Source: Arctopsyche grandis (taxonomy: Eukaryota > Arthropoda > Insecta > Trichoptera > Hydropsychidae). From it: a stretch of DNA of 64,000 bases. This document shows, piece after piece, positions 5,990-60,953 of the stretch. The position numbers were made by a program, and so were the translations under genes. The number at the start of each line of letters is the position of its first letter. The first letter of the stretch is position 1. The stretch spans positions 1,912,501 to 1,976,500 of the forward strand of contig NC_135365.1 in NCBI RefSeq assembly GCF_051622035.1. The letters run 5' to 3'. The notes below the pieces were generated by a model, which saw only the letters and a list, made by a program, of their open reading frames with translations, did not search any database and was not told the origin of the DNA.

Positions 5990-6166
5990 GCGAATATATT
6001 CTGTTTGTGTGACCAATTTTTAATTTTTGGGTGTGACCAGTTTTCTCGTGACCGATTTTAGGGTGTGACAAGTTTTCTCGTGACCAGTTTTAGGGTGACG
6101 GGTGACTGATCTAGAGCGACCGGTTGTCCTGTGACCGGTTCACATTTGACTAGTAGTCCGATTACC
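5990..6166. mobile_element. GTGACCAGTTTT-type MITE, partial
   Basis: Contains several copies of GTGACCAGTTTTCTC-like motifs and ends GACTAGTAGTCCGATTACC, the same terminus as the complete element at 40500-40689. It abuts the leader of ZAD copy 2. Confidence 0.55.
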
Positions 6167-6185
6167 GTCGGGTGCACGTTATTTA

Positions 6186-18472: not shown

Positions 18473-18962
18473 TGTGGCGGCTCGCTTATACGACATGGTC
18501 GAGTTTGGTTGCCTTCCTGCGAGTGGGGACCAACCCGGCTGGGTTCGGAGAGCCGCTACTCACCCTGTCTTCAGCTGTCATATAATAAACACGTGCATTA
18601 ACATGCCAGTCGTCTCATTCGTTCATCCTCCATACTGGTGACCCCCGACATCGCCACGCAGCCTCGATCAATTTCAACATGCCGCTCATCCCTGCCTCGC
18701 CGAGTCAGGCGGGAAAGCTACCCGCCACGCCCCCATCGCCATCAACAGAGCGCGTCGCGGCCCGCGGGTGACAATAAACGAGCAGACACGGCTACCTACC
18801 TACCTACCTACCGACTGGAGTCCAGCCAACGTCGATGACAGGTGCTTTAAAAAATGGGGGAGCGAATGAGACGACGATCTTGACAGCTGGATGTGGAGTC
18901 ATGCGCGATCCACTACACATAGAACGGTCATCCAGCACCACAAGACATACACCACCTCAGCA

Positions 18963-18993
<31 letters not shown>

Positions 18994-19569
18994 GGCCCCG
19001 TCCGTCCCCACGAGCGTCGTCACGCCGAGACGGGCGGTAGCGCTACAACACCTCCACGAGCCACAACGACTCACAGTCCAGCTCGGAGTATCATCAACCA
19101 CATCGATGCCCCTGCCGCCCCCGCCGCCCCACCAACCGACATCAGCCTCAGAAGAGCGGCGCCGCCGCAGCATCGCATCGCATCGGCGCGACCATCGGAC
19201 CAGCCACCGTCCTGCTCGTGACGTCACCGCCCTCGAATCTACCGACCATTCAGGGCGGTACACCTATGTACACAGCGGATGACCCACGTCAACAATTTTT
19301 TTTCTCCCCACGTAATAATTTTTTCTCTTCGTGTAACAATAATTTTTTTCTTTTGTAAAATTTGTTTCTTTGTAATTTTGGTATCGCTGATGCTGGGGGG
19401 GGAGTGATGTGGCGGCTCGCTTATACGACATGGTCGAGTTTGGTTGCCTTCCTGCGAGTGGGGACCAACCCGGCTGGGTTCGGAGAGCCGCTACTCACCC
19501 TGTCTTCAGCTGTCATATAATAAACACGTGCATTAACATGCCAGTCGTCTCATTCGTTCATCCTCCATA
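18473..19569 (+). mobile_element. Small non-autonomous LTR element (TRIM-like), complete
   Basis: Two 162-bp LTRs (18473-18634 and 19408-19569) look identical and start TGTGGCGG. A 4-bp duplication AAGT lies at 18469-18472 and 19570-19573. Just inside the 5' LTR is a primer-binding-site-like TGGTGACCCCCGAC; a G-rich polypurine tract precedes the 3' LTR. The ~770-bp interior has no gag or pol. It is structurally whole and probably young. The interior carries a CAT/ATC microsatellite and CTAC repeats. It must have used proteins from another element. Confidence 0.85.
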
Positions 19570-19573
19570 AAGT

Positions 19574-21061: not shown

Positions 21062-23342
21062 CCTTTCCTTACCGGTGATAGAAACATAGTCGACATTTAC
21101 TCTAATTGTGTGAATATCTCTGTAAATATACTAAATACAGAGTTCATATTTTGGGTATTCCTCAGCAATACATTAATGTATTAGATAGAATTATTATAAT
21201 ATACACGTATTTATCTGACGCAACAGAAAAAAATATTTTATCGAAGAATCGGGCATAATGCGCAAATGCAGTGTGTGTTATTAGGTTTTTTCCTTTTGTC
21301 GTGTCCCGTTCTCGGTGCGCGCGTGTTGTTTTTTTCGTTTCGGAGCTTTTTTGTACCGTGTGGACCAGCACTTTATTTGTGTTTCTTGATTATTATATAG
21401 TAAATACGGTAATAATTATTTAATGTTATTTTTTTTTAATTTGCTATGCTACATTGTATATTATATTTATATTTTCAAAGACATAATTTTACTGATACGG
21501 AAGATTTTATTGAAGATATGGAAGATACAGATTCGGAATTAGAGGCCAGTGAAAATGAAGACGAAGAAGTGTATACATCGAATCATGGATTTCAATGGAA
21601 TTCATTACCACCATCATCCTCAAGACGTAGAGAGTGCAATATTGTTACCGAAAATTCAGGACTTATAAATGGTAGCACTACTGTAAATACTATTAGAGAA
21701 ATGTTCTCTTTGTTTATAAATTCAAATATGGTGAGAGAAATATGTGAACAAACGAATCGTCAGTTACATCGTACATCCACGAAAATTATCGAGCCGATAT
21801 TGGCAGAAGAATTGCTTGCATTCATTGGAATAATGCTTGCGTCTGGCAGAAATAGGACCCGAAAATTAGGCTTAAATGAATTGTGGACTAATGACAGCGC
21901 TTTTTGCCAACCATTTTTTACGGCATCTATGTCTCGGGATAGGTTCATCACAATATTCAGTCAAATTCGTTTTGACGACAAAGAAACCAGACAAGAAAGA
22001 ATACACGTGTCGTCTGATAAATTAGAACCTATCAGGACAATTTTTAATGAATTTGTAGAAGAATGTAAACGTAATTATTCTCCAAGTTGCAACATTACTG
22101 TGGATGAACGTTTGGCTACCTATAGAGGCAATTGCCCATTCCGCGTGTATATGAAGTCGAAACCCGGTAGATATGGAATAAAAATGTGGGTATCGGCTGA
22201 CTCTTCAACAGCATATATATTAAATATACAGGTTTATACAGGTATGGTTAATAATTGCCGAGAGATAAATCAAGGGAATCGTGTAGTGATGGATTTAGTT
22301 CAACCGCAATATGGCACCAATAGAGGTGTAACAACGGACAACTTTTTTACTTCGGTGGCATTAGCTGATAGCCTTTTAGATAAAGGGCTAACTCTAACTG
22401 GTACCCTACGTAAAAATAAACGGCAAATTCCCAAAGAATTTTTACCATCGAAACATAGACTTTTACACAGTAGCTTGTTTGGTTTTACATCAACCAAGAC
22501 ATTAGTTTCGTATGTGCCAAAAAAAATAAAGCAGTTTTGCTATTGTCTACTCAATTTCATGAAAGTGAAGTGAGTAGTCATGAAGAAAAGAAGCCGGAAA
22601 TAATAATGTTTTATAATAAAACAAAAGGTGCAGTAGATACCGGCGATAAAATGACAAGTGAGTATTCTTGTGCAAGATCAACAAGAAGATGGCCTTTTAG
22701 AGTGTTTATGGAGATGCTGGATATAGCTGCGCTAAATGCATATTTGCTATGGGCGCAGAAATATCCAGAATGGAAGGCGAATAACAGAAGTCGACGAAAA
22801 TTATTTATTAGAGAACTTAGTTTGGAATTAGCTATGCCCAATATTGTATTTTTTTTATTTACGTTTACTTCTCATTTTTTTTTATCAATTTATGTATTTG
22901 TGTATTAAAATTATTATTGTGAAAATAAATACATGAAAAGTACATATAAACATATTTTATTTTATTTGATGAAAAAATTGAATATATTTTTACGCATAGG
23001 TTTTGAATCATCGCGTAATTCTGGCGGATGTGGCGTGATCACTGATCAGCGAGTCGCGGAGTGGGGGCCTAGTGTTCGTCCTCACTTGGAGATGGGCGGC
23101 CTTCTGGGATTGTCGTTCACGCGTCTTCAATTTCATGCTTTTTAGATCGTTTTTAGCAGTATATTACCAATATTGATACATATATATTCATTTATATAGA
23201 TACGGACTATTACTATAGTCATGAATAGAAGGAAAAATGATTAAATATTCATATTTATCAGACTTTAAAATCACGAATTTCTAGAACGACTGAGTCGACA
23301 TCACCGCTGCACGCGTAATTTTTTAGCACCGTAAGGGAAAGG
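21062..23342 (+). mobile_element. piggyBac-like DNA transposon, nearly complete
   Basis: 2,281 bp flanked by TTAA at 21058-21061 and 23343-23346, the piggyBac target. Inverted ends are CCTTTCCTTACCGGTG and CCGTAAGGGAAAGG. A second inverted motif, around GTCGACAT, lies ~30 bp inside each end. It contains one transposase gene broken by one visible frame slip. Nothing has inserted into it. Confidence 0.9.
21446..22908 (+). pseudogene. piggyBac-type transposase, one frameshift
   Basis: DDD transposase of a cut-and-paste element that integrates at TTAA. An acidic N-terminus (residues 25-42 from the first in-frame ATG; a more likely start is the Met at 21518) precedes the core. Catalytic aspartates are visible at D220 (NITVDERLATYRG) and D298 (TTDNFFTS), 78 residues apart as in canonical piggyBac (D268/D346). 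The third (KGAVDTGDKM, codon at 22636) lies in the next frame. The switch falls at an 8-A run, 22519-22526; one more A would give the family sequence VPKKNK. It is either a real slip or a sequencing error. No cysteine-rich C-terminal finger is visible after AMPN. Confidence 0.88.
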
Positions 23343-25879: not shown

Positions 25880-25979
25880 TGCATAGTGCGGTCAGACCAT
25901 TATTGTCAAAATTATACAATCGATAGACTGTGACTAAAAAAGTCACAGACCGTCACTCGTCAGAGTCGGGTAAGAGAGG
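25880..25979 (+). promoter_or_regulatory. Leader of ZAD copy 5
   Basis: CATAGTGCGGTCAGACC, TTGTCAAAATTATACAATCG and AAAAAAGTCACAGACCGTC correspond to the cluster leader, with small differences. Confidence 0.45.
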
Positions 25980-30001: not shown

Positions 30002-30034
30002 GTCAAATGTATACAATAATTAATTATAAATATT

Positions 30035-30104
30035 ATCACTATTAGTGTCAATTTTATATAGCAGATGTCACTAAAAAAGTCACAGACGAGTTGGGTGCGA
30101 GAGG
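30035..30104 (+). promoter_or_regulatory. Leader of ZAD copy 6
   Basis: ATTAGTGTCAATTTTATATA, GATGTCACTAAAAAAGTCAC and GAGTTGGGTGCGAGAGG lie directly before the start codon. Confidence 0.5.
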
Positions 30105-33399: not shown

Positions 33400-33893
33400 A
33401 TTAAATTTTGATTTGACATTCGAACTGTTAAAGTGAAATGAACGCAAAAGCGATTGCCAACCTTCTCGGATGCGAGCGATGCTAACGTCAGATGGGCTGA
33501 CAGATGCCCGCAAACTCCTCGCGAAGACCACAAACAACGGCCACGGCCACGGCCACGAGGGCCTTTGGCTCGAACATATGTCTAGTCGATAATAATAAAA
33601 ATTTCGTAAATAAAAAGTATTTGAGAATATTTTTGTTTGTGTGACCAATTTTAAATTTTTGGGTGTGACCAGTTTTCTCGTGACCAGTTTCAGCGTGTGA
33701 CCAGTTTTCTCGTGTGACTAGTTTTCTCGTGACCAGTTTTAGCGTGTGACTAGTTTTCTCGTGACCAGTTTTAGCGTGTGACTAGTTTTCTCGTGACCAG
33801 TTTTAGCGTGACGGATGATCACGAGTGACCGATCTAGAGCGACCAGTTGTCCTGTGACAGGTTCACATTTGACTAGTAATCACCGAACCATCA
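33400..33893. mobile_element. GTGACCAGTTTT-type repeat, long form
   Basis: The right half has six or more copies of GTGACCAGTTTTCTC-like units and ends ACTAGTAATCACCGAACC. The left half (33400-33640) is a GC-richer block. The whole is repeated in reverse at 47904-48345. It cuts off the 3' end of the hAT transposase gene next to it. Confidence 0.6.
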
Positions 33894-35974
33894 AACGACG
33901 TTCATGCCACCATTGAAGCGGATCTTCTTTACGATTTAGATACTCTTCATTTAGGTATTTATCTAATTCGCGAATGCCAGCAGCAAGCTGGTTATCTGGC
34001 CTAGTAATTTTTTGTATTTCTTGGTCGTATTCATCCCATATGCAGCTATTTTTATTACTAGGTATAGATGTTGATGCGTCGCTGGAAGTAGGAACAGCCT
34101 CTGAAGTATCCCCTTGAACTAATTGTACTTGGCCGATTTTATTTCTAAGGGCTTGTACTACCATTTCACAGGCTCTTTGATTTTTGAATCCCCTCGTCTT
34201 AAATCGAGGATCCAAAATCGTACACTCTGCGTATAACATTGAACGATAGCTTCAGGAGCTGTAATGTGTGTGTGTATGCTGGGTGACCAGTGGCTGTGTG
34301 TGTGTGTCGTCGTCTCTATGTGTGTTCAGCTCGCTCTGGAGCACGTGCTGGAACAGGGCGGGGTGGGGAATTAGACAAGTCAGCTCGGGTTATCCTCGTT
34401 TATTGACGAATAGAATGGCGAGCCGGGGAGTTTGCCGGCGCCTCTCGCCTGTGCCCCTCTATGGCGGGGGCTGTGGATGAGTACTGGCTGGCTGGCTGCA
34501 GCTGGTCACTGGTCACTGGTCACTGGTCAGGCAAGGTAGACCAGCCACCAGCCACCAGCCACGCCAGTACCGTCTCGGCCGGCGGATGGCGGGCGTCTCG
34601 TTTGACAGATGAGCGCGCCTCGTAAACATGAGTGCGCGCCCGTAAGAGCCCAAAACACGGCCATGTGGATTTGTTGGCTCGGACAAACATATTCTTCTCT
34701 ATATCTTTGAAACGATCTTCCATGCCTTTCTTTAGCAGAGACTGCACATAAACTATTTTTGTATTGTAAGAAACATGTCTTTGTAAAAAAAATTTTAGTA
34801 AATTACACAAAATTATTATTTTAGATAAAGTGACGTTTTTCTCAGCACTTATTTCTACGGTAATCTCGTAGAATGGACTGAGTAATGGTAAAACTTCCTC
34901 TATGACTTCCCAGTCCCCTTCATTTAAAGTTAAATCAGGGCGTAGAAGTGCAACGGTAGCAATCACTGCATCCTTTACCTGTACTATTCGCTTGAGCATG
35001 TCAAAAGTGGAATTCCAGCGGGTTTGTACATCCTGCTTGAGCTTAAGAACAGGCAAATTCATTTGCTGCTGCGTAGCAGCCAATTTATGTTTTCCTTGTG
35101 TGCTACGATTAAAAAACTCGACAATATTTTCTCTTCCCAAAACGTCACATATCTTTTTCGTAGCTTCTTGTACAACAAGATTTAGAGAGTGAGCGAAACA
35201 TGAGATGGACCGCCAATCACCAAGTCTAACAGCAGATAAGATATTTGCTGCATTATCGCTAACAATGGCGGCAACTTTGTGTGAAATGTTCCACTCTGCC
35301 ATAACAACTTTCATAAAGTCGCACAAGTTTTGACTAGTATGTCGCTCTTTATAATTGATACAACCAAGTAATACTGAGTGAAGTTTAGTCTCTTCATTTA
35401 TAAAATGAGCTACAATAGCTATATAACTGTCGTTATTTCTAGACGTCCAACCATCAGTACTAAGAGACAACGCTGGTGCTGCTTGTACCTTTATTTTTGC
35501 TTCAGCCATGACGTCATTGTGAATTCTTGACATTAAATTTTCCGATAACGTTTTTCTTGATGGTAGTTTATAGCCTGGGCATCGAGAAACTAATTCAATA
35601 AGTTTACGAAATTCTGTATCTTCTACGATTCTTAAGGCGTGATGCCCTTAAGCTACCATCTTGACAAGTTGTTTATCAATTTGCTCAATCTTTCGAACTG
35701 GCGGTGGTCTACGAATGTATTGGATCATCGATTGTTGGGAGTCTACTATATTTGATGATGCTGAAATTATATTCTCCGATTCACATGTGCTTTGACTTGA
35801 TTGAAGTGAGTTTAAACTAGGTAATATCGGCGTTTGTCTTTCAGCAGTTAATGGGATCAAAAGGTGTTTTGTTTTCATATGTCGGGTTAAATTACCATTT
35901 GATCCGCCCGCAATACTTATTATTGTTGAACAATGGTTACATGTTTTCTTTTTGATGACATCGTAACAAATAGC
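33894..35974 (-). pseudogene. hAT transposase, BED-type (ZBED-like), interrupted
   Basis: A hAT-superfamily transposase read from 35974 downward. An acceptor-like TTGTTATAG precedes a BED zinc finger (CNHC at ~35940, ending NLTRHMKTKH). The core follows: LSLSTDGWTSRNNDSYIAIV with the first catalytic aspartate, AAIVSDNAANI, ISCFAHSLNLVV and VQTRWNSTFDML. One in-frame TAA lies at ~35650 (KMVA-stop-GHHALRIVED). A ~430-bp GC-rich insertion at about 34245-34680 separates RANKS from LDPRFKTRGF. The gene stops at DPLQWWHERR where the MITE ending 33893 cuts it, so the C-terminal dimerisation region is missing. The upstream exon is also missing. Confidence 0.8.
34245..34680. repeat. GC-rich insertion inside the hAT gene
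   Basis: 34340-34640 resembles 1-200 of the window (GGGTGGGGAATTAGA; GCCCCTCTATGGCGGGGGCT). It begins with (TG)n-rich sequence and holds GGTCACT repeats near 34503. Probably a fragment of the LTR-like family at 1-597. Confidence 0.5.
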
Positions 35975-36064: not shown

Positions 36065-37109
36065 TGTGGCGGCTCGCTTATACGACATGGTCGAGTTTGG
36101 TTGCCTTCCTGCGAGTGGGGACCAACCCGGCTGGGTTCGGAGAGCCGCTACTCACTCTGTCTTCAGCTGTCATATAATAAACACGTGCATTAACATGCCA
36201 GTCGTCTCATTCGTTCATCCTCCATACTGGTGACCCCCGACATCGAGCCACGCAGCCTCGATCAATTTCAACATGCCGCTCATCCCTGTCTCGCCGCGCC
36301 CCCATCGCCATCAACACAGCACGCCGCGGCCCGCGGGTGACAATAAACGAGCAGACACGGCTACCTACCTACCTACCTACCTACCGACGTCCAGCCACAA
36401 CGTCGATGACAGGTGCTTAAAAAAATGGGGGAGCGAATGAGACGACGATCTTGACAGCTGGATGTGGAGTCATGCGCGATCCACTACACATAGAACGGTC
36501 ATCCAGCACCACAAGACATACACCACCTCAGCACCATCAAGGCCCCGTCCGTCCCCACGAGCGTCGTCACGCCGAGACGGGCGGCAGCGCTACAACACCT
36601 CCACGAGCCACAACGACTCACAGTCCAGCTCGGAGTATCATCAACCACATCGATGCCCCTGCCGCCCCCGCCGCCCCACCAACCGACATCAGCCTCGGAA
36701 GAGCGGCGCCGCCGCAGCATCGCATCGCGCGACCATCGGACCACCCACCGTCCTGCTCGCGACGTCACCGCCCTCGAATCTACCGACCATTCAGGGCGGT
36801 ACACCTATGTACACAGCGGATGACCCACGTCAACAATTTTTTTTCTCCCACGTTATAATTTTTTCTCTTTGTGTAACAATAATTTTTTTCTTTTGTAAAA
36901 TTTGTTTCTTTGTAATTTTGGTATCGCTGATGCTGGGGGGGGAGTGATGTGGCGGCTCGCTTATACGACATGGTCGAGTTTGGTTGCCTTCCTGCGAGTG
37001 GGGACCAACCCGGCTGGGTTCGGAGAGCCGCTACTCACTCTGTCTTCAGCTGTCATATAATAAACACGTGCATTAACATGCCAGTCGTCTCATTCGTTCA
37101 TCCTCCATA
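36065..37109 (+). mobile_element. Small non-autonomous LTR element (TRIM-like), complete
   Basis: Second complete copy of the 18473-19569 family. LTRs 36065-36226 and 36948-37109 are 162 bp each and nearly identical, flanked by ATAC at 36061-36064 and 37110-37113. Same primer-binding-site-like motif and polypurine tract; no gag or pol. It looks whole and young. It lacks the long ATC microsatellite of the other copy. Confidence 0.85.
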
Positions 37110-37113
37110 ATAC

Positions 37114-37509
37114 ATTAGAAGCATAAGCTGCCTGATAACGACAGAGTCTTATTATTTTAAAATTTATTTAACGTTCGGTTAACGTCACTCTCGTTCATTC
37201 GGTCACAAACTAATGAAATTCTTGTGTAGTTGGCGAACGAACTGTCTTGTGTAGTTCGCGAACGAACTAGATCGTAAGAGAGTGAACAAGACGCGCGCGC
37301 ATGCGCATGCGCATGTGCAGTGAGCGAGCGGCAGTATTAGTGAATTAGTGTAGTGTGGTGTAGTGCCGTCCCACTCTCGCTCATTCGGTCACGAACTAGT
37401 GAACTAAGGAGCGAGGAGTGAGGGACTAGTTCGACTAGTTCGACTTGTTCACCTGTGGGAGCGCTCTTACGACAAGCCTACGTCACTGGTCAGAGTTGGG
37501 TGCGAGAGG
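37114..37509 (+). promoter_or_regulatory. Divergent 5' region of ZAD copy 7
   Basis: Only the last ~30 bases (GTCACTGGTCAGAGTTGGGT) match the cluster leader. Upstream is unlike the other copies: repeats of CTCGTTCATTCGGTCAC (37192, 37378) and GTTCGCGAACGAACTAG, and an alternating GCGCGCATGCGCATGCGCAT tract at 37293-37315. Copy 7 has therefore lost or exchanged the standard leader. Confidence 0.4.
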
Positions 37510-38510
37510 ATGGAGTGCAGGCTTTGTCTTGGATGGAGTACTCCGGCCGAATCTTCCGTCTCCATCTTCGGCGATCCTCATCCAGAATGTCTGGAGCAAA
37601 GCATTCGGACCTGCTGTCAAATTTATGTCAGTTGCTGGTTACAGGTTACAATTATTGTGCACCCAATTGGTTAACTCTTATTCCCATCTTTTCTCATCTG
37701 CAGGTTAAGAGAAACGATGGGCTGCCAGACATAGTGTGTATTTCGTGTAAGACCAATCTGGAATCGTTGATCAGCTTTCGAAAGGCTTGTTTTCGAAGCA
37801 ACGAAACGTCTCAACTGAGGTTAGATGATTGCTTGAAGATCAAGACTGAAGAAGTTTTGTTGGAAGATTTAATATGGGACGATGAGCCTTCACTACCGAT
37901 CATTCACCGAAAGAATAGTAAAATTTGTTCAAAGCCATTGCCCAGTGGATCTGAACTCGTTATACATAGTAGAGAAAAGCCGTTCAAATGTGACAATTGT
38001 TTAAAATCATTTCGTCGTAAATATGATCTTGTGATACATATAAGATCTCACACGGGGGAAAAGCCTTACAAATGTGATATTTGTTTAAAATCATTTCGTC
38101 GTAAATATGATCTTGTGATGCATTTAAGATCTCACACGGGGGAAAAGCCTTACAAATGTGATATTTGTTTAAAATCATTTAGGAATAAATCTGCGCTTAT
38201 TATTCATTCAAGAACCCACACGGGGGAAAAGCCTTACAAGTGTAAAATCTGTTTAAAATTATTTTCTCATAAAAATAGCTTCAAGGCACATACAAAATTG
38301 CATACTCGGATAAAACCACACAAATGTGACTTTTGTTTAAAGTCATTTTTTTACCATTCTTATCTTGTTCGTCATTTGAGATCTCATACTGGGGAAAAGC
38401 CTTACAAGTGTGATATTTGTTTAAAATCATTCTCCTTAAACTCGATCCTCACGAAACATATAAGAACTCGATGTCACCTTAGGTTCTTAAAAAATCGCAT
38501 ACTGGGATAA
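37510..38510 (+). CDS. ZAD-C2H2 zinc finger protein, copy 7
   Basis: Exons 37510-37626 and 37704-38510 (307 aa), intron 77 bp. Exon 1 is 117 bp because of a one-codon insertion after MECRLCLG (WSTPAE instead of PAPAE). ZAD second half: [15 protein letters not shown]. Degenerate first finger ([14 protein letters not shown]), then six C2H2 fingers; the first two are nearly identical (FRRKYDL), a fresh finger duplication. After finger six the frame runs into [17 protein letters not shown]. Compared with copy 8 an A is missing near 38474 (TTAGGTTC against TTAAGGTTC), which removes one further finger. It is otherwise open and probably still encodes a shortened protein. Confidence 0.82.
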
Positions 38511-40372: not shown

Positions 40373-40857
40373 GAAAGTACATATATCATACAATAATTAT
40401 AATTTAGTAGCCAATATTGTCAACGATGTTCTTACATGTATTTTTTTTTTTATGTATTCGAACCGCTCCATAAGATATATTTCATATTGAAGTTAAATTG
40501 GTTCGGTGATTACTAGTCAAATGTGAACCGGTCGCTCTAGATCGGTCACACTAAAACTGGTCACGAAAAAACTGGTGGATCGATTTTAGGGTGTGACCAG
40601 TTTTAGTGTGACGGGTGATCACGTGTGACCGATATAGAGCGACCGGTTGTCCTGTGACTGGTTCACATATGACTAGTAGTCCGTTTACCGTTCAATTATG
40701 ATACAATAAAGTGTCGTCTAAAGAACTGCAACGTGTAATCTATAACAAAAATGTGAACGAAACATAGAGCTTATATGTAAATAAACATTCTTAAAATAAT
40801 AATAAAATCAGTTTAAAATAATTATTTTATATTTTTATTATAAAATATTATACACAC
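40373..40857. repeat. Inverted duplicate of 32018-32288, carrying a MITE
   Basis: Opposite orientation to 32018-32288. It is joined directly to a same-orientation copy of the end of ZAD copy 6, so the duplication was rearranged. Confidence 0.7.
40500..40689. mobile_element. Complete 190-bp palindromic MITE
   Basis: Starts GGTTCGGTGATTACTAGTCA and ends TGACTAGTAGTCCGTTTACC; subterminal GAACCGGTCGCTCTAGATCG is mirrored at the right. GTTAAATT (40492-40499) and GTTCAATT (40690-40697) are an 8-bp duplication with one mismatch. The empty site exists at 32150. GG/CC ends with 8-bp duplications do not match a family I can name; Merlin-like is one option. Confidence 0.75.
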
Positions 40858-41190: not shown

Positions 41191-42629
41191 ATTAATTTTC
41201 TTATCAAATTTATCTCATGGGTTTTAAAAGTTGTCATAAGATGTAATATTGGGAACGTAGAAAATTTTGGTGCTAAAGATAATGTCTCACAAAGATATAA
41301 ATCTTACAATACTGTACCCCGAATTGATTCAGTTTGCACGGACATGTAAGACCCGAACAATGACAAGCTTTTTCAATGACAATGACAACAATTCTCCATA
41401 TTTCTTATAGTTGTAAAGATATTTCATCTTTGTTGACTGGAAACGGTACCTCCCCTTATATGTAGGTGCCTTCTTTTTTTTAAGTTTTTGAATTAAATTA
41501 CCTCCCAAACCACTAATCAAATCGGACTGAATTTTTTTACATGTAATAGTAATTATAAATTTTATACATCAATATTTTAAAATATGTTTTCCTAAACCGG
41601 AGGTAGTACTTTTACTCTGGAAGACCGAGGTTTTTTATATTTTTCTCAGAAACCCTTTAGTTTATTGAACTAAAATTTCATATTTAGAAGCTTAAGTTTA
41701 ATACCAAGTTATTTATAAAAGTTGGTAAGCATCCGTCAACCGGAAATGGTAGTTTACTCTCGTTCGATTTTTCTTCCACTATTTTTTTCGACCTCTTAAA
41801 CATGTGTGCTCTTCACGAAAAAACACAAATATATATTTCGTAATTATTGTATTAATGTGATGAAAATAAAAACAATAACTTAATTAAACCGTAAGCGGGA
41901 TTTTTTTCCTCTTAGAAAAGTCAAAAATGTTGTAACCACGATTCTTTCCACACCCTTGAACGTGTCAAGCTGAAAATTTATATTTCTATTCTTTATATAT
42001 TAACTTTCAATTGTTAAGGTTTTGGTCAGAATTCGTAAACCGGAAGTAGAACTTTTGTCTTTTGTAAGTTTCCCTACATTGGGGCTCAATTTGTATCGAA
42101 AACGCTCCTATAACCCGTATGTGTATGTTTAATCATCGAATTATTTTTTTGACCTTATATTCCTCAAATACATAGATATAGTTATGGGTTGGTCACATCC
42201 GATTTTTTTTATTTATTTACTGTTTGTGTGCACATGATTTTTGTTGAAATTTTTTTGCTCAGCACGGAGCTGGAGCAAAATATTGATCCCGGAGCGGAGC
42301 AGTTGCAAAAACAGTCCACTCCAATTTACTGGTATATACATATTTATGGCTTTGTTCTCTATTATTTTAATAAAACAAAAAAGTTAACTATTTGTATTTT
42401 CATTTAATTCCACCTGAATTATATAATATTATGTATTAATAATGTCATACTTGTTTTCCGAACAAAACAAAATAGACTTCACCATGATAAACATTATTAC
42501 CAACTAGTGTTGTAATAATGATTGAGCCCATTGATTTCAACGGGTGGTTTCGAAAAGGAATTGAAACACGAATAAAAATAAATATATATATATAAAAAAA
42601 AAAAAAATATATTTATTCAAAAATGTTTG
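41191..42629. repeat. AT-rich region with CCGGAAGT-type repeats
   Basis: AACCGGAGGTAGTACTTTT (41595), AACCGGAAATGGTAG (41738) and AACCGGAAGTAGAACTTTTG (42041) are degenerate units spaced irregularly; a similar region is 49930-50220. 42498-42575 is the reverse complement of 49385-49450. No gene is seen. Confidence 0.35.
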
Positions 42630-45110: not shown

Positions 45111-45194
45111 ATATCGTAAGTAATATCGTTGGTGTGAACGCAGCCATTCAAACGCGGTTTACCTAATATTGTCGCGCACTGCCGAGTCGTGTCG

Positions 45195-45271
45195 CATACT
45201 CGTAGTGTCAAATTTATACAATAGATTGACTGTGACTAAAAAAGTCACTGGTCTGAGTTGGCTACGAGAGG
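45195..45271 (+). promoter_or_regulatory. Leader of ZAD copy 8
   Basis: CGTAGTGTCAAATTTATAC, AATAGATTGACTGTGAC and AAAAAAGTCACTGGTC lie before the start codon, matching the other leaders. Confidence 0.5.
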
Positions 45272-47903: not shown

Positions 47904-48345
47904 GGTTCGGTGATTACTAGTCAAATGTGAACCGGTCGCTCTAGATCGGTCACTCGTGATCACCCGTCACGCTAAAACTGGTCACGAGAAAACTGGTCGC
48001 ACGCTAAAATTGGCCACGAGAAAACTGGTCACCCGCTAAAACTGGTCACACCTAAAATCAGTCACGAGAAAACTGGTCACACCCAAAAATTAAAAATTGG
48101 TCACACAAAAAAGTTATTCACAAATACTTTTTATTTACGAAATTTTTATTATTATCGACTAGACATATGTTCGAGCCAAAAGCCCTCGTGGCCGTTGGTT
48201 GTGGTCTTCGCGAGGAGTTCGCGGGCATCTCATCAGAGTCAACTCATCTGACGCTCTCTAGCCGCGTCGAGAAGGTTGGCAATCGCTTTTGCGTTCATTT
48301 CACTTTGACAGTTCGGATGTCAAATCACGGTTTAATCTTAATTCA
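47904..48345. mobile_element. GTGACCAGTTTT-type repeat, long form, reversed
   Basis: Starts GGTTCGGTGATTACTAGTCA; reverse complement of 33400-33893. Ends near TTAATCTTAATTCAC. Confidence 0.6.
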
Positions 48346-48397: not shown

Positions 48398-48775
48398 CTA
48401 AATATATTTGTATATTTGTATATTTGTATATTTGTATATTTGTATATTTGTATATTTGTATATTTGTATATTTGTATGTGACGGACGATCAACCATCAAC
48501 CAGTATGGGGAACAAATTTTTTTTTTTTTTCATATTTTTCAGTTTTTTAATTTTTTTAATTTTTTCAGTTTTTTCATTTTTTTCATTTTTTCAGTTTTTT
48601 CATTTTTTTCATTTTTTCAGTTTTTTCATTTTTTTCATTTTTTTCATTTTTTTCATTTTTTCAGTTTTTTCATTTTTTTCATTTTTTCAGTTTTTTCATT
48701 TTTTTCATTTTTTCAGTTTTTTCATTTTTTTCATTTTTTCAGTTTTTCATTTTTTTCATTTTTTCAGTTTTTTCA
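48398..48775. repeat. Microsatellites
   Basis: (TATATTTG)n, about ten units, at 48398-48478, then from ~48515 a T-rich tract of TTTTTTCATTTTTTTCATTT type with CAG spacers to 48775. Confidence 0.85.
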
Positions 48776-49290
48776 TTGCCGGGGGCGCTGGCGGCGCTGG
48801 GGGCGAAGCCCCCGGGGTGCCAAAGGCATCGGGGCGCTGGGGGCGCCGGAGGCGTCGGCGGCGCCGGGGGCGAAGCCCACGGGATGCCGAAGGCATCGGG
48901 GACGCTGGGGGCGAAGCCCCCGGGGTGCCGAAGGCATCGGGGGGGCTGGGGGCGCCGGAGGCGTCGGCGGCGCTGGGGGCGAAGCCCCCGGGGTGCCGAA
49001 GGCATCGGGGGTGCTGGGGGCGCCGGAGGCGTCGGCGGCGCTGGGGGCGAAGCCCCCGGGGTGCCGAAGGCATCGGGGGGGCTGGGGGCGCCGGAGGCGT
49101 CGGCGGCGCTGGGGGCGAAGCCCCCGGGGTGCCGAAGGCATCGGGGGTGCTGGGGGCGCCGGAGGCGTCGGCGGCGCTGGGGGCGAAGCCCCCGGGGTGC
49201 CGAAGGCGTCGGGGGCGCCGGAGGCGTCGGCGGCGCTGGGGCCGAAGGCCCCGGAGCGACGGAGGCATCGGGGGCAAAGGCGTCAGGAGG
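48776..49290. repeat. GC-rich minisatellite, 68-bp unit
   Basis: Unit CGCTGGGGGCGAAGCCCCCG... begins at 48971, 49039, 49107 and 49175, exactly 68 bp apart, with less regular units on either side. Because 68 is not a multiple of three, each unit shifts the frame; the long open frames on both strands reflect absence of stops in GC-rich repeats, not a gene. Runs of four to six G recur. GGGGGCGAAGCCCCC is itself a hairpin. Confidence 0.85.
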
Positions 49291-49454
49291 TCGGCGATGC
49301 ACAAAACGTAGTTCGTAATTCGTAATCACTTCGTAATTCGTGCATCAATTTCTTTCCGAAACCAGTCGATTCAATATCTTTAACTTTATTTTTATTCGAG
49401 TTTCAATTCCTTTTCGAAACCACCCGTTGAAATCAACGGGTCCAACACTAGTTT

Positions 49455-49555
49455 TATTATAAAAATATAAAATAATTATTTTAAACTGATTTAGTGTCTA
49501 ACACACTTAGTGTCAAATTTATACAGTAGATGTCACTAAAAAAGTCACAGACGAG
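49455..49555 (+). promoter_or_regulatory. Orphaned leader of ZAD copy 9
   Basis: TTAGTGTCAAATTTATACAG, TAGATGTCACTAAAAAAGTC and ACAGACGAG match the leader that elsewhere lies within 100 bp of the start codon. Here it is followed by an inserted element; the matching downstream half resumes at 54922, 32 bp before the copy 9 start codon. Confidence 0.7.
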
Positions 49556-50542
49556 TCTGTCACTGATTCACTGTAAGTTCGCCTAATGCAATTCACCTAA
49601 TTCGAGTATACCTAAGCGAGTTGGTCGAATATCAACATACCGAACGACGACCATACCTAATGTCATACATACCTAACTGCAGTTTACCTAATACAAATTG
49701 ATCGAATGAAGGTTGTTTTACGTTGACGGATAGATGGCACTTTTGCATTGATAATTTCAAGATTATTTAAAACAAAATAAAATATTAAGTTGTATTTTAA
49801 AATTTATATTTTATTAATAGATGAAGTCGATCACTGTTTTTAAAAAATGTGCGTGTTTGGCTGTGTATTTTAGTAATAATTCAAACACCATTAAATATCT
49901 TTGAAACTGAAACACTGAAACTTTTTACTGTGTAATAAAATTTTAATCGTTGCGCTATAATTTTTTTTTTCATTTTCAAATCTGCCGGAAGTAGCATTAT
50001 TTTTCTTTGAATTATTATATATCCTAGACCGTGTATCGAACTGAAATTTTATATCTATAACTTGTATTAACTTGTACGCTCGAACTTACACTATTTTTTG
50101 GACTTATTAATTAAATGTCTACTCTTATCGAAAAAATATAGTCCTTCAATTAATATTACATAAATAATAAATAATCAATAAGTTTTATAAACCGGAAACG
50201 AGCCTTTTATTACATACAAATCTCAAAAATGATGCGACTGCTGCTGCCGATGCTGCTGATTTTTTCGAAACTATTGGATACTCACATTAAACTAATAGTT
50301 GATAGTGTCATGCCGACTCGAATTGCAAGTCAAGTGCCATTTTATTAAGTGATAAGCAATACTGTGTTACATTCATTGAAAGCCTAGGTTCTATAAATCA
50401 TATTCATTAAGTAGATAGAAGAAACGGAATTCAGCGAAGAAATGTCATACGATGAACACTTACCATTTTACATATCGACTAATTCCGATAAGTCATATTT
50501 TAAATCCATTGTCATATGAAATAATTATTATATATGGGATAG

Positions 50543-50906
50543 ATGAAACATATTGTGACTAATCAGAATATATTACAACAGGTAAATACACTTTTACTAT
50601 ACATATGTACTCTGTTAATATTTTTCTTATATAGATATATACTTTTTACCCGAACACTAGAAAAAGTCAAAGATTTGTGGAAACATTGTGTTTCATTTGA
50701 TACTTACTCTAGAGAACAGCTGGCATTGTTATCATTAACAATCTTTGAGTTTTACTGAACAACATTTCAAATCTATTTTCAAACAAGAAATCGAACGGAA
50801 ATAAACTAGAAAATATATATCACTCTTTATCTTCCAGCGACAATTCGTCTTAGATTGTAGAAGACAAGAGTCTCCACTTGCTGAAGTTAAAAATTATAAA
50901 GAAAAA
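50543..50906 (+). other. Exon-like segments inside the 5.36-kb element
   Basis: MKHIVTNQNILQQ is followed by a donor-like CAG|GTAAATAC (50580). ACTAG then precedes EKVKDLWKHCVSFDTYSREQ (from about 50661). At 50838-50906 a fine acceptor (CTTTATCTTCCAG) opens RQFVLDCRRQESPLAEVKNY, then KEK and donor-like GTAAATAT. These would fit a spliced gene of the element, product unknown. Splicing is inferred. Confidence 0.3.
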
Positions 50907-51029
50907 GTAAATATATATTAATTATTTAAATAATGGGAATAAAAAGTACACAGTAAAATTTTTTAAATTGAAAGAAATAGAGTCTTTTGAAATTTTTTTA
51001 ATACACAATAGTTATGACAAATATTAATA

Positions 51030-51380
51030 AACACGAAAACACAGTATTTAATGAATGGTCTGGTATACAAATATTTAAAATATAAAAAAACTCATGGTGT
51101 GGTGATTTATTGGCAGTCTTTTCACTACACAATAACCATGAGCGGTGACACATCACTTGCAAAACTTGATTTTAAGTGGCAGTCATTACATAACAATTCA
51201 TTCCACAATAACAACAATTCAAAACAACATATCAATTCGGAAATCAACGAAAACACAGTATTTAATCATTGGTCTCGTATACAAATATTTAAAATATAAA
51301 AAAAACTCATGGGGTGGCGATTTATGCAATAGTATTAAAGCTAATCAGTCTTTTCACCACACAATAACCATGAAAAGTTA
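51030..51380. repeat. Direct repeat, two units
   Basis: CGAAAACACAGTATTTAAT, GTATACAAATATTTAAAATA and CAGTCTTTTCACYACACAAT occur in the same order from ~51033 and ~51247. Confidence 0.65.
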
Positions 51381-51499
51381 TAAACCCCTGATATGATATA
51401 CATATGTAGTGTTTGTGTCCTTTTGATGTTGTCGATTTTATATGCTAAAAAATCAATTCACTATATTAAAAAAAAAAAATTATACTTTCTCGAGAATTT

Positions 51500-52020
51500 T
51501 CCACGATTTGTCCGATATATTTTTGTGCTGGCCACCCCAGACTGACTGACAGTCGCGCGCCAACGGCTTCGGCATAAACACGTAGTTTTTCTCGCCACCG
51601 AAATCACCAGCTCGGCCACTGGTGATGGGTTGTGACGATACTTGGAGACCAGCAACCAGCGACCAGCGACCAGCGACCAGCTCCAGTATCGCCAGTATAG
51701 CGGTGTGCGCCAGAGGAAGCAGTTGTCTGCAGAGGGTCTGTCTCAGTTGTCGTCCAGAAGGCAGCTACTCAACAACTCGTAGCCAGCTACGCGTGGCTAA
51801 CCTCAAAAGGCACGCGTGCTTTCTGCTTTCTTTGTTTACTCCCCCCCTTTCCTCGGTTGCTCTGCTTGATCTCTGTATAACTTATACAAAATACAGTCGC
51901 AATACATAAACAGATTTACGCCCTGTTTTCATTGGTTTACAATTTCCTCCCTTTTTTCCACATCACGCATCCCACGCACACTACGAAGGAGAAAGGGACA
52001 GCAGAGCAGCCGACATCTTA
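51500..52020. repeat. LTR-like repeat B fragment
   Basis: Shares CGCGCCAACGG, GATACTTGGAGACCAGC, GCTACGCGTGGCTAACCTCA and AAACAGATTTACGCCCTG with 4160-4977. Fossil, inserted in the 5.36-kb element; CAGCGACCAG is repeated at 51655-51680. Confidence 0.5.
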
Positions 52021-52436
52021 AATTAAAAAATAGCAACTAACATATAGGTACTTTTATAATATTTCTGATAGATTTTTAACTCATTAAAATATATTTTTAA
52101 GATCTTTTTTTTTAATTTGTCATAGGACCCAGAATAAATTTTCCCAGGGCCCAGGATATTGCGATACTCGCCAATCAAAATATGTACACGAATGTTGAAT
52201 TAATTATACCTCCCACTTTAGATACGGTGGGACTGATTTTTCATTCTATTCATATTTTAATTCATACTCTATCATCATTAGCTATAAGTAATTATAATCA
52301 CTGATGATGTTATATTATTATGAATGTGATATCACTCAGGAGATAAATTATTCACATCAATAAAATCATAATGAAACTGTGTAAATAATACGTTCTTGAA
52401 CTAGTACAATTATTTATAATGCTGTATTGTTTTAGA

Positions 52437-53945
52437 TGCAGATACCATTAATAATACTGCAGATTGTTTATCCTACCAGAACAGTGAAAATGTTGTAAAA
52501 GTACTTAAAAGAAGACCAGGAAATCGAATACGGTGGACTAGAGAAATTCATATCTAAATATAAGGGACAACCCGTGTCTGCAAAAAACCCTAACATCTGG
52601 ATTGCTCAAAATGTCGGATTTTGGTATTCAGATAACTTCTCCATTGAAAAATCAAAATATTTTTTGCAATGCATACTCAAGTCTTGTTGATTCTGCACGG
52701 CAAAAGTCGTACATTTGTTCTATAGTCAAAATGAAGCCTTTTTTACGAGGCTCTTTTTTATCATTTAAATGTACTTTTGTTATACTCATAATGAACATTT
52801 CAAGAAAATATATAATATGCAACTTTTATTTGTGCTGAAATGTAACATGTCAAAATTCAATACTTTCATATATACAGTTATATTGTATGCCAAATCACTC
52901 CATAAAACTTGAAATAATTCATACCAGTAATAATTCATTTAGAATATTGTACTTTAGAAAAATGCCAAATTCACTATTTTATTTAATGTAATAATTAAAC
53001 GCTAGCAAAGCTTTCCCGCAGTTGTTCTCACCAACCACAACCATTAATATGAAGTACACGTATGATTTAAGTGAAGTTATATTTCGCAATTGCAATCACA
53101 TTATCTTAGAATAGCACGAAACATTTCATTACTCAATATAATCAATTTCACCCTACTTATTTTATTTATTAAGTTTTGATAACATGGGAATAATTAAGGT
53201 AATGATTTTTTTTTTTAGACATTTGAAAACTATTTCTGAAGAGGAAAGGGTTGGAATAACTGTGGAAACTACTGAGGACCCGTTGGTCCTACTCATCGAG
53301 CCAAGAATGTCCTAAATTTGTTGTTAGTAGATTTATGCGACAACTAATGGAACAGTATCACATTTGTGTTAGCAAAATTTGATATGGGAGCTGTTTCGTT
53401 CACAGTTATCGTCGCAGGGAGGCAATCTGCGTTAGAGAATATGTCAAGATTAAAAATGCTGAATTCCATAATTTATTGATAAATATTACTTATACTATGC
53501 TATTTTTAAATTTTTCGTTCTAGTATATTTAGAACTGAAATTTGGATTTAATGTACGTTTAGAATCCTAGCTCCACGCTTGAAACCCAATTATAAATGTG
53601 ATATTAAATTCTGAACTAAAAAAGGATTTCGAAAAAATATGCGGCTTCAAATTTTTAAACTCTTTCCAATGTTAAATTTTATTTATCGCTGTGTGAATGA
53701 GCTGATAAGCATTAAATTTTGTGCGAAACAATTAGACATGTCACAAGCTACAGTTATTGATTGAAATCATTATTTACTTAGGGTCTGTGTGGTGTCACTA
53801 ATAGAACAACCAAATACCATGATCGGTGGAGAAGAGATGGTCATTGAAATTAGCAAACGTCTTTTCGTTTATATACGTACCAAATTTTTTGTAAAAAACT
53901 TCTATAGCTTCACACAAGAGTATTTTTATTACATGACTTGATACA
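52437..53945 (+). other. Further exon-like segments in the 5.36-kb element
   Basis: Three stretches follow acceptor-like sites. 52437 (TTGTTTTAG|): DADTINNTADCLSYQNSENV, then KVLKRRPGNRIRWTREIHI and a stop. 53220 (TTTTTTTAG|): HLKTISEEERVGITVETTED, then PLVLLIEPRMS and a stop. 53780 (TTTACTTAG|): VCVVSLIEQPNTMIGGEEMV, then IEISKRLFVYIRTKFFVKNF to a stop near 53940. I recognise none of them. Multiple stops mean that they cannot all belong to one transcript as they stand. Confidence 0.25.
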
Positions 53946-54931
53946 ATAGTCAATTTTCTTTAACGTTAGTTGTTTTACATATTGATTATTCATATATTGA
54001 AAAGAATATATGTGTTCTGTGTTGTCTGTAATAAGTTGACCATCTGTAATACCACTCATGAGTTTTTATTATATGAAAATGTTTATTATAAATTGGTTTA
54101 TTTCTGTAACTTGATTAATAAATTATTTATTATTTATTGTATTGCTTGTTTCTTGTCTTGCTATTATTGTTTATATTTCATTGTGTTTTGCAATCTACGT
54201 ATAAATTACTAACTGATTTATATTTGTTATGTATTCATCATAATTTATATTTATTACGTATATTTAAAATTATTAATTATTTATTATGGAAATTGTATCA
54301 ATCGTAGAAATTGTACTAGTCTGTCTATTATACATGCGTTTTCTTCTCACCTTCTTTTAATATTGATGATTGGAAAGCCAATTTTAATATATGTACAATA
54401 AAAAAAATCTGTATATCTTTTTTGATTCCTTTTTATTACTTTGTTTTATCATAAATTTTATTGTAAATATGTACAATGTTTGCTATATAATATAGTATAG
54501 TATATATAGCAAAAGATAATACAAAGCTACAAAAGCAATTAATTTTTTCAATGTCCTTAATTTAGTTCACTCGCCATTAGGTGGGAAATCCTTTTTAAAT
54601 CTTCTGTCGGGCGCAATATGGTGTATATAGAGTTTAAGGGCTATTTGCAAAGAAATGTTATAACATTTATCTGTCTATGTTACTACGCCATCTATTGATA
54701 TCGCGTCGAAAAATTACTAAATAATAAAATTTACTACTATTGGTTTGAAACTCGGCTACTGCTGGTTTGAAACTCGAAATTAGGTGAATGTGTCATTCGG
54801 TATAAAGATATTAGGTGAATTTACCATTAGGTCAATAGATTTTCGGTAAAAGCGTCATTAGTGGAATTGCATTAGGTGAATTGATTTAGGTGTATTGCAT
54901 TCGACCAATTTACCTGCTCCCTCTGTCACTG

Positions 54932-54952
54932 GTCAGAGTTGGGTGCGAGAGG
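54932..54952 (+). promoter_or_regulatory. Residual 5' leader of ZAD copy 9
   Basis: GTCAGAGTTGGGTGCGAGAG is the start-proximal part of the leader left beside the gene after the insertion. Confidence 0.6.
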
Positions 54953-57090
54953 ATGGAGTGCAGGCTTTGTCTTGGACCAGCTCCGGCCGAATCTTCCGTC
55001 TCCATCTTCGGCGATCCTCATCCAGAATGTCTGGAGCAACGCATTCGGACCTGCTGTCAAATTTATGTCAGTTGCTGGTTACAGGTTACAATTATTGTGC
55101 ACCCAATTGGTTAACTCTTATTCCTATCTTTTCTCATCTGCAGGTTAAGAGAAACGATGGGCTGCCAGACATAGTGTGTATTTCGTGTAAGACCAATCTG
55201 GAATTGTTGATCAGCTTTCGAAAGGCTTGTTTTCGAAACAACGAAACGTCTCAACTGAGGTTAGATGATTGCTTGAAGATCAAGACGGAAGAAGTTTTGC
55301 TGGATGATGTAATATGGGACGATGAGCCTTCACTACCGACAATTCACCGAAAGCGTAGTGAAATTTGTTCAAAGCCATTGCCCAGTGAAGCTGAACTTGT
55401 TTTACATAGTAGAGAAAAGCCGTTCAAATGTGACAATTGTTTAAAATCATTTAGTAGTAAATATAAACTTGGGACACATTTAAGATCTCATACGGGGAAA
55501 AATCCTTATAAGTGTGAAATTTGTTTAAAATTATTTACTCAAAAATCTAGTCTTGTGTCACATGAAAAATTGCATACTGGGTCAATGTACAAATGTGACA
55601 TTTGTTTAAAATCATTTTTTCAGAAATATGAACTTGTTATACATTTAAGATCACATACAGGAGAAAAGCCTTACGAGTGTGGTATTTGTTCAAAATCATT
55701 TACTCGTAAATCTGGCCTCGAGTCACATAAAATATTGCATACTGGGATGAAACCACACAAATGTGAAGTTTGTTTAAAATCATTTTCTCTAAAACATAAC
55801 CTCAGGACACACGAAAATTTGCATACTGGGATAAAACCACACAAATGTAACAATTGTTTAAAATCATTTGTTAGTAAATATGAACTTGTTCGTCATTTAC
55901 GAACTCACACAGGGAAAAAGCCTTATGAGTGTAAAATTTGTTTAAAATCATTTATTCAAAAATCTAGTCTTGTGTCACATGAAAAATTGCATACTGGGTC
56001 AATGTACAAATGTGACATTTGTTTAAAATCATTTTTTCAGAAATATGAACTTGTTATACATTTAAGATCACATACAGGAGAAAAGCCTTACGAGTGTGGT
56101 ATTTGTTCAAAATCATTTACTCGTAAATCTGGCCTCGAGTCACATAAAATATTGCATACTGGGATGAAACCACACAAATGTGACATTTGTTTAAAATCAT
56201 TTATTCGGAATTCTTATCTTGTTCGTCATTTGAGATGTCACACCAGGGAAAAGCCTTACAAGTGTGATATTTGTTTAAAATCATTTAGTAGTAAATATAA
56301 ACTTGGGACACATTTAAGATCTCATACGGGGGAAAATCCTTATAAGTGTGAAATTTGTTTAAAATTATTTACTCAAAAACATAGCCTAGTGACACATAAA
56401 ATATTGCATACTGGGATAAAACCACACAAATGTGAAGTTTGTTTAAAATCATTTTCTCTAAAACATAACCTCAGGACACACGAAAATTTGCATACTGGGA
56501 TAAAACCACACAAATGTAACAATTGTTTAAAATCATTTTTTAGTAAATATGAACTTGTTCGTCATTTACGAACTCACACAGGGAAAAAGCCTTATGAGTG
56601 TAAAATTTGTTTAAAATCATTTATTCAAAAATCTAGTCTTGTGTCACATGAAAAATTGCATACTGGGTCAATGTACAAATGTGACATTTGTTTAAAATCA
56701 TTTTTTCATAAATATGAACTTGTTATACATTTAAGATCACATACAGGAGAAAAGCCTTACGAGTGTGGTATTTGTTCAAAATCATTTACTCGTAAATCTG
56801 GCCTCGAGTCACATAAAATATTGCATACTGGGATGAAACCACACAAATGTGACATATGTTTAAAATCATTTTCTCGAAAATATTACCTCAGGGTACATGA
56901 AAAATTGCATACTGGGATAAAACCACACAAATGTGACATTTGTTTAAAATCATTTATTCGGAATTCTTATCTTGTTCGTCATTTGAGATGTCACACCGGG
57001 GAAAAGCCTTACAAGTGTGATATTTGTTTAAAATCATTCACCATTAAATCGTCCCTCACGAAACATATAAGACATCATTCTCCGAAATAG
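54953..57090 (+). CDS. ZAD-C2H2 zinc finger protein, copy 9, 20 fingers
   Basis: Largest member. Exons 54953-55066 and 55144-57090 (686 aa), intron 77 bp (TAT|GTCAGT ... TCTGCAG). [16 protein letters not shown], then [15 protein letters not shown]. Degenerate first finger, then twenty C2H2 fingers ending KHIRHHSPK. The array grew by block copying: fingers 2-4, 7-9 and 15-17 are near-identical triplets, and fingers 5-6 match 13-14. Each triplet has a shortened linker (HTGSMYKC) one residue below normal. The spacing of this linker, 417 and 669 bp (55581, 55998, 56667), equals five and eight fingers less one codon. The frame is completely open despite the inserted element 22 bp upstream of the residual leader. 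Confidence 0.9.
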
Positions 57091-57743: not shown

Positions 57744-58525
57744 ATGCTTTGTAATAAAATTGGATCTGGGAAAACACTAACGGGACAATCTCGCGAAATT
57801 GTGTATAATGTTTTCAACTATTTCATGCATCGTATAGTGAATAGTGAAAGTGACGAAAGAAATAGTTTTATGAAAAATTTATATGCTTTTAAAACAAAAT
57901 TTTTCTACAAAAGTTATTAGAAGTTTTGAAAGATAGTTTAAAACTGAAAGGTGCGATTTCTTCGTTAAGAGTTATCGTTCGTAGGCTAGGTTTCAAATGG
58001 AGAAAGATGAAAAATAATAAACAAATACTTATTGAAAAAAGTGTAATTCGACTGAAGAGATCCATATATCTTTCCAAATTAGAAGAGTATAGATTGCAAG
58101 GCCGCCCTATAGTTTACACGGATGAATCCTATATAAATAGCTCACATACGATGCCAAAATCATGGTCCGATGAAACTAGCAAAGGTTGCAGAGTACCGAT
58201 TTATAAGGGTAATATGCTAATAATAGTTCACGCCTGTTCTGAAAAAGGATTTATTCCAAATGCGTTACTTATATATCCATCTAAAATTAAAACCGGAGAT
58301 TATCATAATAATATGAACGCGATTAATTACCAAAAATGGATTAAAGAAAAGCTTGTTCCAAATTTACAACCCCAATCTGTAATTGTTATTGATAATGCGT
58401 CGTACCATAATGTCATGTCAGAACCTATGCCCACATCTAATTCGTACGTACGTACGTTTGTTTTACTTATAATTAAAAAAAAATGCTATTTATCATTTTA
58501 TTCGTGGCACGTATTCAAATATTAA
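57744..58525 (+). pseudogene. Tc1/mariner-type transposase remnant
   Basis: 57744-57920 encodes an N-terminal piece (GSGKTLTGQSREIVYNVFNY). After a stop and frame change, 57926-58525 gives the DDE core: VYTDESYINSSHT with the first aspartate (D66 of this frame), KGNMLIIVHACSEKGFIPNA, GDYHNNMNAINYQKWI and VIVIDNASYHN with the second (D156). Sequence similarity ends at PMPTSNSYV, where TTC|GTACGT may be a splice donor; the third catalytic residue is not visible. The family E repeat at 58725-59000 is probably the 3' end. Confidence 0.7.
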
Positions 58526-60476: not shown

Positions 60477-60953
60477 TGTTCAGACTAAGTGTCTGATGGT
60501 CGGCTTTCGTGACCTTACGACCCACGATTTGGCCGATGTTTTTTGGTGCTGACCACCCTGGTCAGCGCACACGAGTTGCGCGCCAACGGTCGCCGCATAA
60601 ACACGCTGTTCGCTCCTCGCCACCGAATGACTAGCTCGAGACTGGTGATGTTTGACTATAGTTGGAGACCAGCTCCAGTATACGTCCGGTGTGCACCAGA
60701 GGAAGCCTGGTCTGTCTTTGTCCAAAGCATGCGTGGTTCGTTGTTTACTCCCCCCCCCCTTTTCCCCCGGTTTGCTCTATGTACATTCAACGTGAAAATA
60801 TAATCATTGTGATCAGATTTACGACCTGTTTCATTGTTATATAATCTCCCGCGACTGTCCCGTCTCACACTCACACTTACACACTGAATGTACAGCTATC
60901 TCACAAACCGACGCAGGTGGCCTCTCGATTGAGAATCCCTGGCGTCCGTATAA
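60477..60953. repeat. LTR-like repeat B, copy splitting a finger array
   Basis: Starts TGTTCAGACTAAGTGTCTG and ends near GGCGTCCGTATA; same order of motifs as 4399-4977. Fossil. Confidence 0.5.

Follow-up and report, generated by a model that had tools for sequence, protein, structure and literature searches.

A 5.36-kb DNA transposon probably separates an intact ZAD zinc-finger gene of Arctopsyche grandis from its leader

Introduction

Several described systems offer a comparison for the locus studied here, a 5.36-kb element that lies between the 5' leader and the start codon of a ZAD zinc-finger gene of Arctopsyche grandis (Trichoptera). The stretch analysed, called the window below, comprises 64,000 nucleotides of contig NC_135365.1 (RefSeq assembly GCF_051622035.1, positions 1,912,501 to 1,976,500, forward strand), in which we number positions from 1 and name genes by the position of their ATG. 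Among cut-and-paste transposons, Mutator-like elements (MULEs) are described in PMC6446971 with target duplications of 8-11 bp and long, variable terminal inverted repeats (TIRs), and Rehavkus with a 9 bp duplication and TIRs of 26-400 bp. Arthropod MULEs measure 1.4-10 kb, with TIRs of 13-1193 bp, in PMC13359780. For Merlin, PMC8101967 gives a duplication of 8-9 bp, TIRs of 24-462 bp and GG at both ends, and records one family whose TIRs are highly imperfect. A different kind of precedent is provided by the Introners of Chrysochromulina, which according to PMC9860276 bring a 5' splice site with them and rely on a borrowed 3' splice site; the Introner families in that source have median lengths of 30-654 nt, and their copies in a genome number from 5 to over 2,000.

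By these descriptions, the element fits MULE and Rehavkus in the length of its duplication and its repeats, and Merlin in duplication length, TIR length and the imperfection of its TIRs. It departs from MULEs in that a six-frame Pfam search detected no MULE transposase domain and in that its TIRs are strongly diverged. It departs from Merlin in that only its right end (GGGAGC) has the terminal 5'-GG, the left end reading GATTCA. The splicing layout predicted here, a donor in the element together with a borrowed host acceptor, resembles that of the Chrysochromulina Introners, whereas the present case is one 5.36-kb insert in a leader whose splicing is only predicted from sequence. The gene itself resembles the ZAD-ZNF genes of insects, with both a zf-AD domain and a C2H2 array, and its protein is ordinary save for the number of fingers within its own cluster.

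Results

Evidence for a single insertion between leader and start codon

We found nine ZAD genes in the window. A leader block preceding the ATG is common to seven of them, and blastn places it directly next to the ATG in six paralogues (6257, 12292, 17677, 25980, 30105 and 45272). In contrast, the leader of the 54953 gene is stranded 5.4 kb upstream of its ATG; its best blastn match is 30034-30091 (58 nt, 89.7%). The leaders of the 1066 and 37510 genes gave no match by blastn; these two genes were left out of the seven-leader alignment and included in a separate one. In the former, the best-kept part as judged by eye is the core AAATTTATACAATAG.

The stranded leader ends in the ten bases TCTGTCACTG, which occur exactly twice in the window when both strands are searched: at the end of the leader and again 31 bp upstream of ATG 54953 (the right junction), with 5,356 bp between the copies (Table 1). 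The chance that two random 10-mers of the window are equal is 3.0e-5. This exact duplication, the inverted arrays at the two ends of the intervening DNA and the contiguous leaders of the paralogues all point to one pair of junctions, and we therefore consider it very probable that one cut-and-paste transposon was inserted ahead of an intact ZAD gene, parting its start codon from its leader. On this reading of the sequence, a single class II element of ~5.36 kb would have entered the 5' non-coding leader at a point 31 bp short of the ATG; the target duplication would measure 9 bp, and ~70 bp of leader would have been cut off upstream. An insertion of such a sort is an ordinary kind of event.

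That a single insertion had struck a promoter or 5' UTR was already proposed in the initial annotation, which described a conserved leader, ten bases reappearing at 54922 and an element of 5.36 kb, and each of these points was borne out. It was likewise right that the largest ZAD gene, with 20 fingers, shows no coding damage. Two points can be refined. The repeat is exact over 10 bp as stated, but the duplication is probably the 9 bp TCTGTCACT plus a G shared by chance with the first base of the element, because the two ends come into register when the element starts at 49565. The inverted ends are real and in register, but they are imperfect (~62% over 45 bp) and not near-perfect.

Table 1 Coordinates of the features discussed in the text
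Feature	Position	Strand	Remark
Displaced leader, 54953 gene	49494..49564	+	homologous to leaders at 30034, 45189, 25900, 6201, 12240 and 17733(-)
Left target-site copy	49556..49565	+	9 bp TCTGTCACT plus G, the G maybe the element's first base
Left terminal inverted repeat	49565..49707	+	arrayed units of ~15 nt with a heptamer that is mostly ACC[TG]AAT
Candidate 5' splice site ACT/GTAAGT	49570..49578	+	7.6 bits, fly matrix
Internal two-copy repeat	51033..51373		copies 51033-51141 and 51247-51373, 80%
Stretch of another repeat family	51501..52013		related to 4166-4769 and 60522-60849; blastn pieces 72-84%
Broken open frames	53142..53941	+	no transposase match in Pfam or NCBIfam
Right terminal inverted repeat	54779..54921	-	same heptamer array, inverted
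Candidate 3' splice site ...GGTCAG/A	54917..54937	+	AG 54935-54936, 4.4 bits
Right target-site copy	54922..54931	+	exact repeat of 49556-49565
Exon 1, 54953 gene	54953..55066	+	114 bp, starts at ATG
Intron, 54953 gene	55067..55143	+	77 bp
Exon 2, 54953 gene	55144..57090	+	remaining ZAD, linker, 20 C2H2 fingers, stop
Paralogue p26	25896..25979	+	element-free, leader adjoins ATG, single target ACCGTCACT, 7/9 bases (by eye)
Paralogue p45	45189..45271	+	element-free, leader adjoins ATG, single target AAAGTCACT, 6/9 bases (by eye)
Paralogue p30	30034..30104	+	element-free, closest gene body, contiguous leader, without target stretch
ATGs of the ZAD genes	1066, 6257, 12292, 17677(-), 25980, 30105, 37510, 45272, 54953		

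Ends of the element

Both ends carry an array of short units containing a common heptamer. The left 200 nt hold eight heptamers (offsets 16, 30, 59, 74, 90, 106, 121 and 136) with none on the other strand; the right 200 nt, reverse-complemented, hold seven, two of them overlapping (offsets 17, 45, 89, 90, 106, 121 and 137), with none on the + strand. With a heptamer set chosen after the ends had been inspected, the ends account for 15 of the 49 matches on both strands of the 64 kb, and none is wrongly oriented. The two ends of this copy also share a motif, GTAA[AG]TT, which is in the same register in each.

When the left 200 nt were compared with the reverse-complemented right 200 nt, the local score was 58, against at most 33 in 500 dinucleotide shuffles. 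Ungapped identities reached 69/150 with the element starting at 49565 and 60 with a start at 49566. Among random genomic inverted pairs the same count averaged 40.4 (sd 6.4, maximum 67), and 0/1,989 reached 69. The inverted repeats are thus imperfect, 62% identical over 45 bp, yet in register: 27 of the next 37 nt inward of the outermost eight agree. Together with the exact 9-10 bp duplication, they provide two of the marks expected of a cut-and-paste transposon.

Searches for relatives of the ends returned little. The end motif CCTAATGCAATTCNCCTAAT had no exact match in the genome contigs searched and one in a viral contig, where no array was seen by eye; a 14-mer matched at least 120 viral stretches. 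A literature search with the end sequences returned nothing related, as judged by title.

Interior of the element

We searched the six whole frames against Pfam with stops written as X, and the sole row at E <=1 was YbgU (0.95), with no transposase. Ten separate pieces gave LRR_12, HTH_50, NCTSP_N, DUF7816 and US29 at E 0.05-0.18, far below the cut-off and none of them a transposase; two further pieces had no match in Pfam, and two pieces had none in NCBIfam. As a transposase domain was not found in six frames, the assignment to a transposon class rests on the ends and the duplication.

The broken frames of Table 1 (CAKQLDMSQATVID...IGGEEMVIEI; 53615-53850) may be remains of a Merlin/IS1595-like transposase, an assumption that no tool result supports. 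DDE_Tnp_IS1595 had no match in the broken, short frame 53615-53938 or in the whole frames. A tblastn search of plasmids with this fragment, at E up to 10, returned three records at E 3-10 and no support for a transposase; of the two inspected, one match lay in a frame that by eye is ABC-transporter-ATPase-like, and the second stood opposite an unrelated frame. The same fragment yielded no relative in viral and genome scans, and PF12762 was absent from one virus record, in a search whose control matched 1/14 genomes. Against phages, blastn of the whole element gave a single 36-nt match, by position in a GACCAGC repeat. The internal two-copy repeat and the relatives of 51501-52013 elsewhere in the window indicate that other repeats are nested or captured in the element.

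The gene and its cluster

With exon ends set by pattern, each of the nine genes has an exon 1 of 114-117 bp followed by an intron of 75-84 bp. For the 54953 gene, the zf-AD match scores 46.3 bits with the exon end at 55066 and 39.9 bits with an end 18 nt further on. Its product of 686 aa is undamaged, carries zf-AD (PF07776) at E = 5.2e-12 and 20 C2H2 fingers counted with a regular expression, and is the largest of the nine; the other eight measure 262-429 aa with 4-10 fingers. The finger array (55425-57038) contains 3.5 copies, at 80%, of a 417-bp unit that holds about five fingers; the copies span 55425-56883, so the gene probably grew by internal duplication. No ZAD relative was found in the viral contigs searched, and Rfam and tRNA searches gave no match.

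In the stretch before its ATG (37111-37510), the 37510 gene is identical to the 54953 gene from GTCACTGG (37482) to the ATG, and its sequence further upstream is unrelated. This second break lies at most 3 bp from the insertion site of the 54953 gene.

Possible promoter elements in the leader

The displaced leader contains a TATA-like word TTTATACA at ~49517-49524 and a TCA at 49545-49547. By eye, a TCA follows the TATA-like word by ~27-33 nt in most of the seven leaders, the 12292 leader being without it. This recurring spacing suggests that the leader holds a core promoter with a start near 49547, and the insertion would therefore lie within the 5' UTR. Relative to p06, p12 and p45, the stranded leader core shows no private change by eye.

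Age of the insertion

The gene bodies of 54953 and 30105 differ at 9/453 sites (5/132, 1/59 and 3/262 in three consecutive segments, the first including 18 nt of intron). Since the 30105 gene is free of the element, the insertion should be younger than the split of these two genes, barring gene conversion of the body, and it is likely young. The target stretch missing from p30 may have been lost by a small deletion. The exact duplication agrees with a young insertion, and the unreadable transposase fits one provided that the element was non-autonomous by the time of its move. The leaders of the two genes differ at 6/58 sites, more than the bodies (Fisher p = 0.0037). One possible reading of this gap is that the body underwent gene conversion and the insertion is older; we do not build on it, because the leader changes lie mostly on the 30105 side by eye.

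Predicted splicing of the element

The left end carries the candidate donor ACT/GTAAGT (49573), 8 nt in from the edge of the element; no second GTAAGT occurs on the + strand of the element. At the other side, the right end supplies pyrimidines before a host AG, raising the acceptor from 2.5 bits in the joined empty site to 4.4. Transcription would still start in the leader, and the element would be removed as a large 5'-UTR intron between this donor and the host AG (54936) past the right duplication. A 5' UTR spliced in this way from 49547 contains no upstream ATG, while the element as RNA would bring in 88 ATG and 11 AATAAA. The naive joint chance that such a donor and acceptor both fall no more than 20 nt from the junctions is ~0.0017, for sites chosen after looking.

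Other repeats around the cluster

Two elements of ~1.05-1.1 kb at 36065-37110 and 18473-19570 are 93% alike, and each bears direct repeats of at least ~110 bp at its termini, ending ...CATCCTCCATA; they look like small LTR (TRIM-type) elements. Further copies of their terminal repeat lie at 23451 and 63747(-). A hairpin ACCCGTTGAAATCAACGGGT followed by ACACTAG before T is found at 49395-49451, just upstream of the displaced leader, and in a less perfect form at 42500-42570(-); both are presumably Helitron-like 3' ends. Also upstream of the leader, 48403-49275 holds stacked simple arrays: (TATATTTG)n, (ATTTTTTTC)n and a 68-bp minisatellite rich in GC. A further minisatellite with units of 15, 17 and 32 bp (GTGACCAGTTTTAGC / GTGTGACCAGTTTTCTC) recurs at 5992-6168, 33625-33881, 40508-40691 and 47912-48116, all in the ZAD cluster. 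Transposase remains were found at 21440-22570 (DDE_Tnp_1_7, E 1.5e-65), 34523-35647(-) (DUF659, below the cut-off) and 57893-58522 (DDE_3, below the cut-off), and they are presumably piggyBac-, hAT- and mariner-like, respectively.

Discussion

The call of one insertion has several observations to reckon with. The local score of 58 was reached by 3/490 random genomic inverted pairs, only the first G agrees within the outermost 8 nt of the ends (GATTCACT, GGGAGCAG), no transposase was recovered from the whole frames, and the single-copy target sites of p26 and p45 have diverged from the duplicated one. These all count against it. The upstream flanks in the cluster are also scrambled, the 1066 and 37510 genes being without a leader match, and on that account the repeat could be due to chance or to an assembly join of unrelated stretches. 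We consider this highly improbable, given that the duplication, the in-register inverted arrays and the paralogue leaders converge on the same junctions.

For the consequence of the insertion, the initial annotation had offered a recent event, a leader spliced across the element or a new promoter supplied by it; this list proved too short, and silencing and the skipping of exon 1 must be added. We place removal of the element as a 5'-UTR intron first, level with silencing, and hold it tentatively, at clearly less than an even chance. Several features of the sequence speak against it. Neither TATAWAD nor TCAKTY occurs in the leader, where we infer the transcription start; were transcription to begin before 49530, the transcript would take in an ATG. 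A stronger donor lies inside the element (50582, 9.3 bits), and 37/3554 GT on the + strand score at least 7.6 bits, including 53199 (7.6) inside the element. The acceptor at 54936 is weak, with 506/2965 AG on the + strand scoring as high or higher; stronger ones exist inside the element (for example 53218, 12.2 bits) and at exon 2 (55143, 12.1 bits), and complex splicing or exon-1 skipping is therefore possible. All these scores come from matrices not built from the source organism.

Silencing, to which we give the same tentative standing, would mean that the insertion shut the gene down or made a young, possibly polymorphic null allele whose frame has not yet decayed. It draws on the probable youth of the insertion (p30 is element-free and the bodies differ at only 9/453 sites) and on the many ATG and AATAAA now standing between leader and gene. 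The intact 686 codons with 20 fingers and the leader core without visible decay (by eye) speak against it, but both are compatible with a young null all the same; an intact frame says little on expression, because a recently silenced gene would look intact too. It is unlikely that the right end of the element serves as a new promoter and the old leader was abandoned. A start within 54791-54952 would give a clean leader, as this stretch is ATG-free, and it contains an initiator match TCATTC at 54793. TATA words stand at 54484, 54501, 54503, 54624 and 54801; moreover, the 1066 and 37510 genes have open frames without a leader match, so other upstream sequence may do. However, the window holds 214 instances of the initiator word on its + strand, and no TATA word lies ~30 nt upstream of 54793. 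Still less probable is a leader spliced past exon 1 to the strong exon-2 acceptor, which would yield a transcript that lacks both the start codon and half of the ZAD. Here the 12.1 bits of that acceptor against 4.4 for 54936, and the weak donor of exon 1 itself (TAT/GTCAGT, 3.5 bits), are set against the requirement that exon 1 be passed over.

If the preferred outcome, splicing of the element as an intron, is taken one step further, the transposon family may carry a splice donor in its terminal motif, and the leader insertion may be an Introner-like intron gain with a borrowed host acceptor, which we consider rather doubtful. The testable twist in an otherwise ordinary event is a transposon end that would bring a splice donor to a leader. 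Should the element be spliced out, the locus would be a large intron gain by a DNA transposon caught in the act, for which the element-free paralogues of the cluster provide controls; otherwise, it would be a ZAD gene severed from its leader, of use in studying how such clusters lose and regain promoters.

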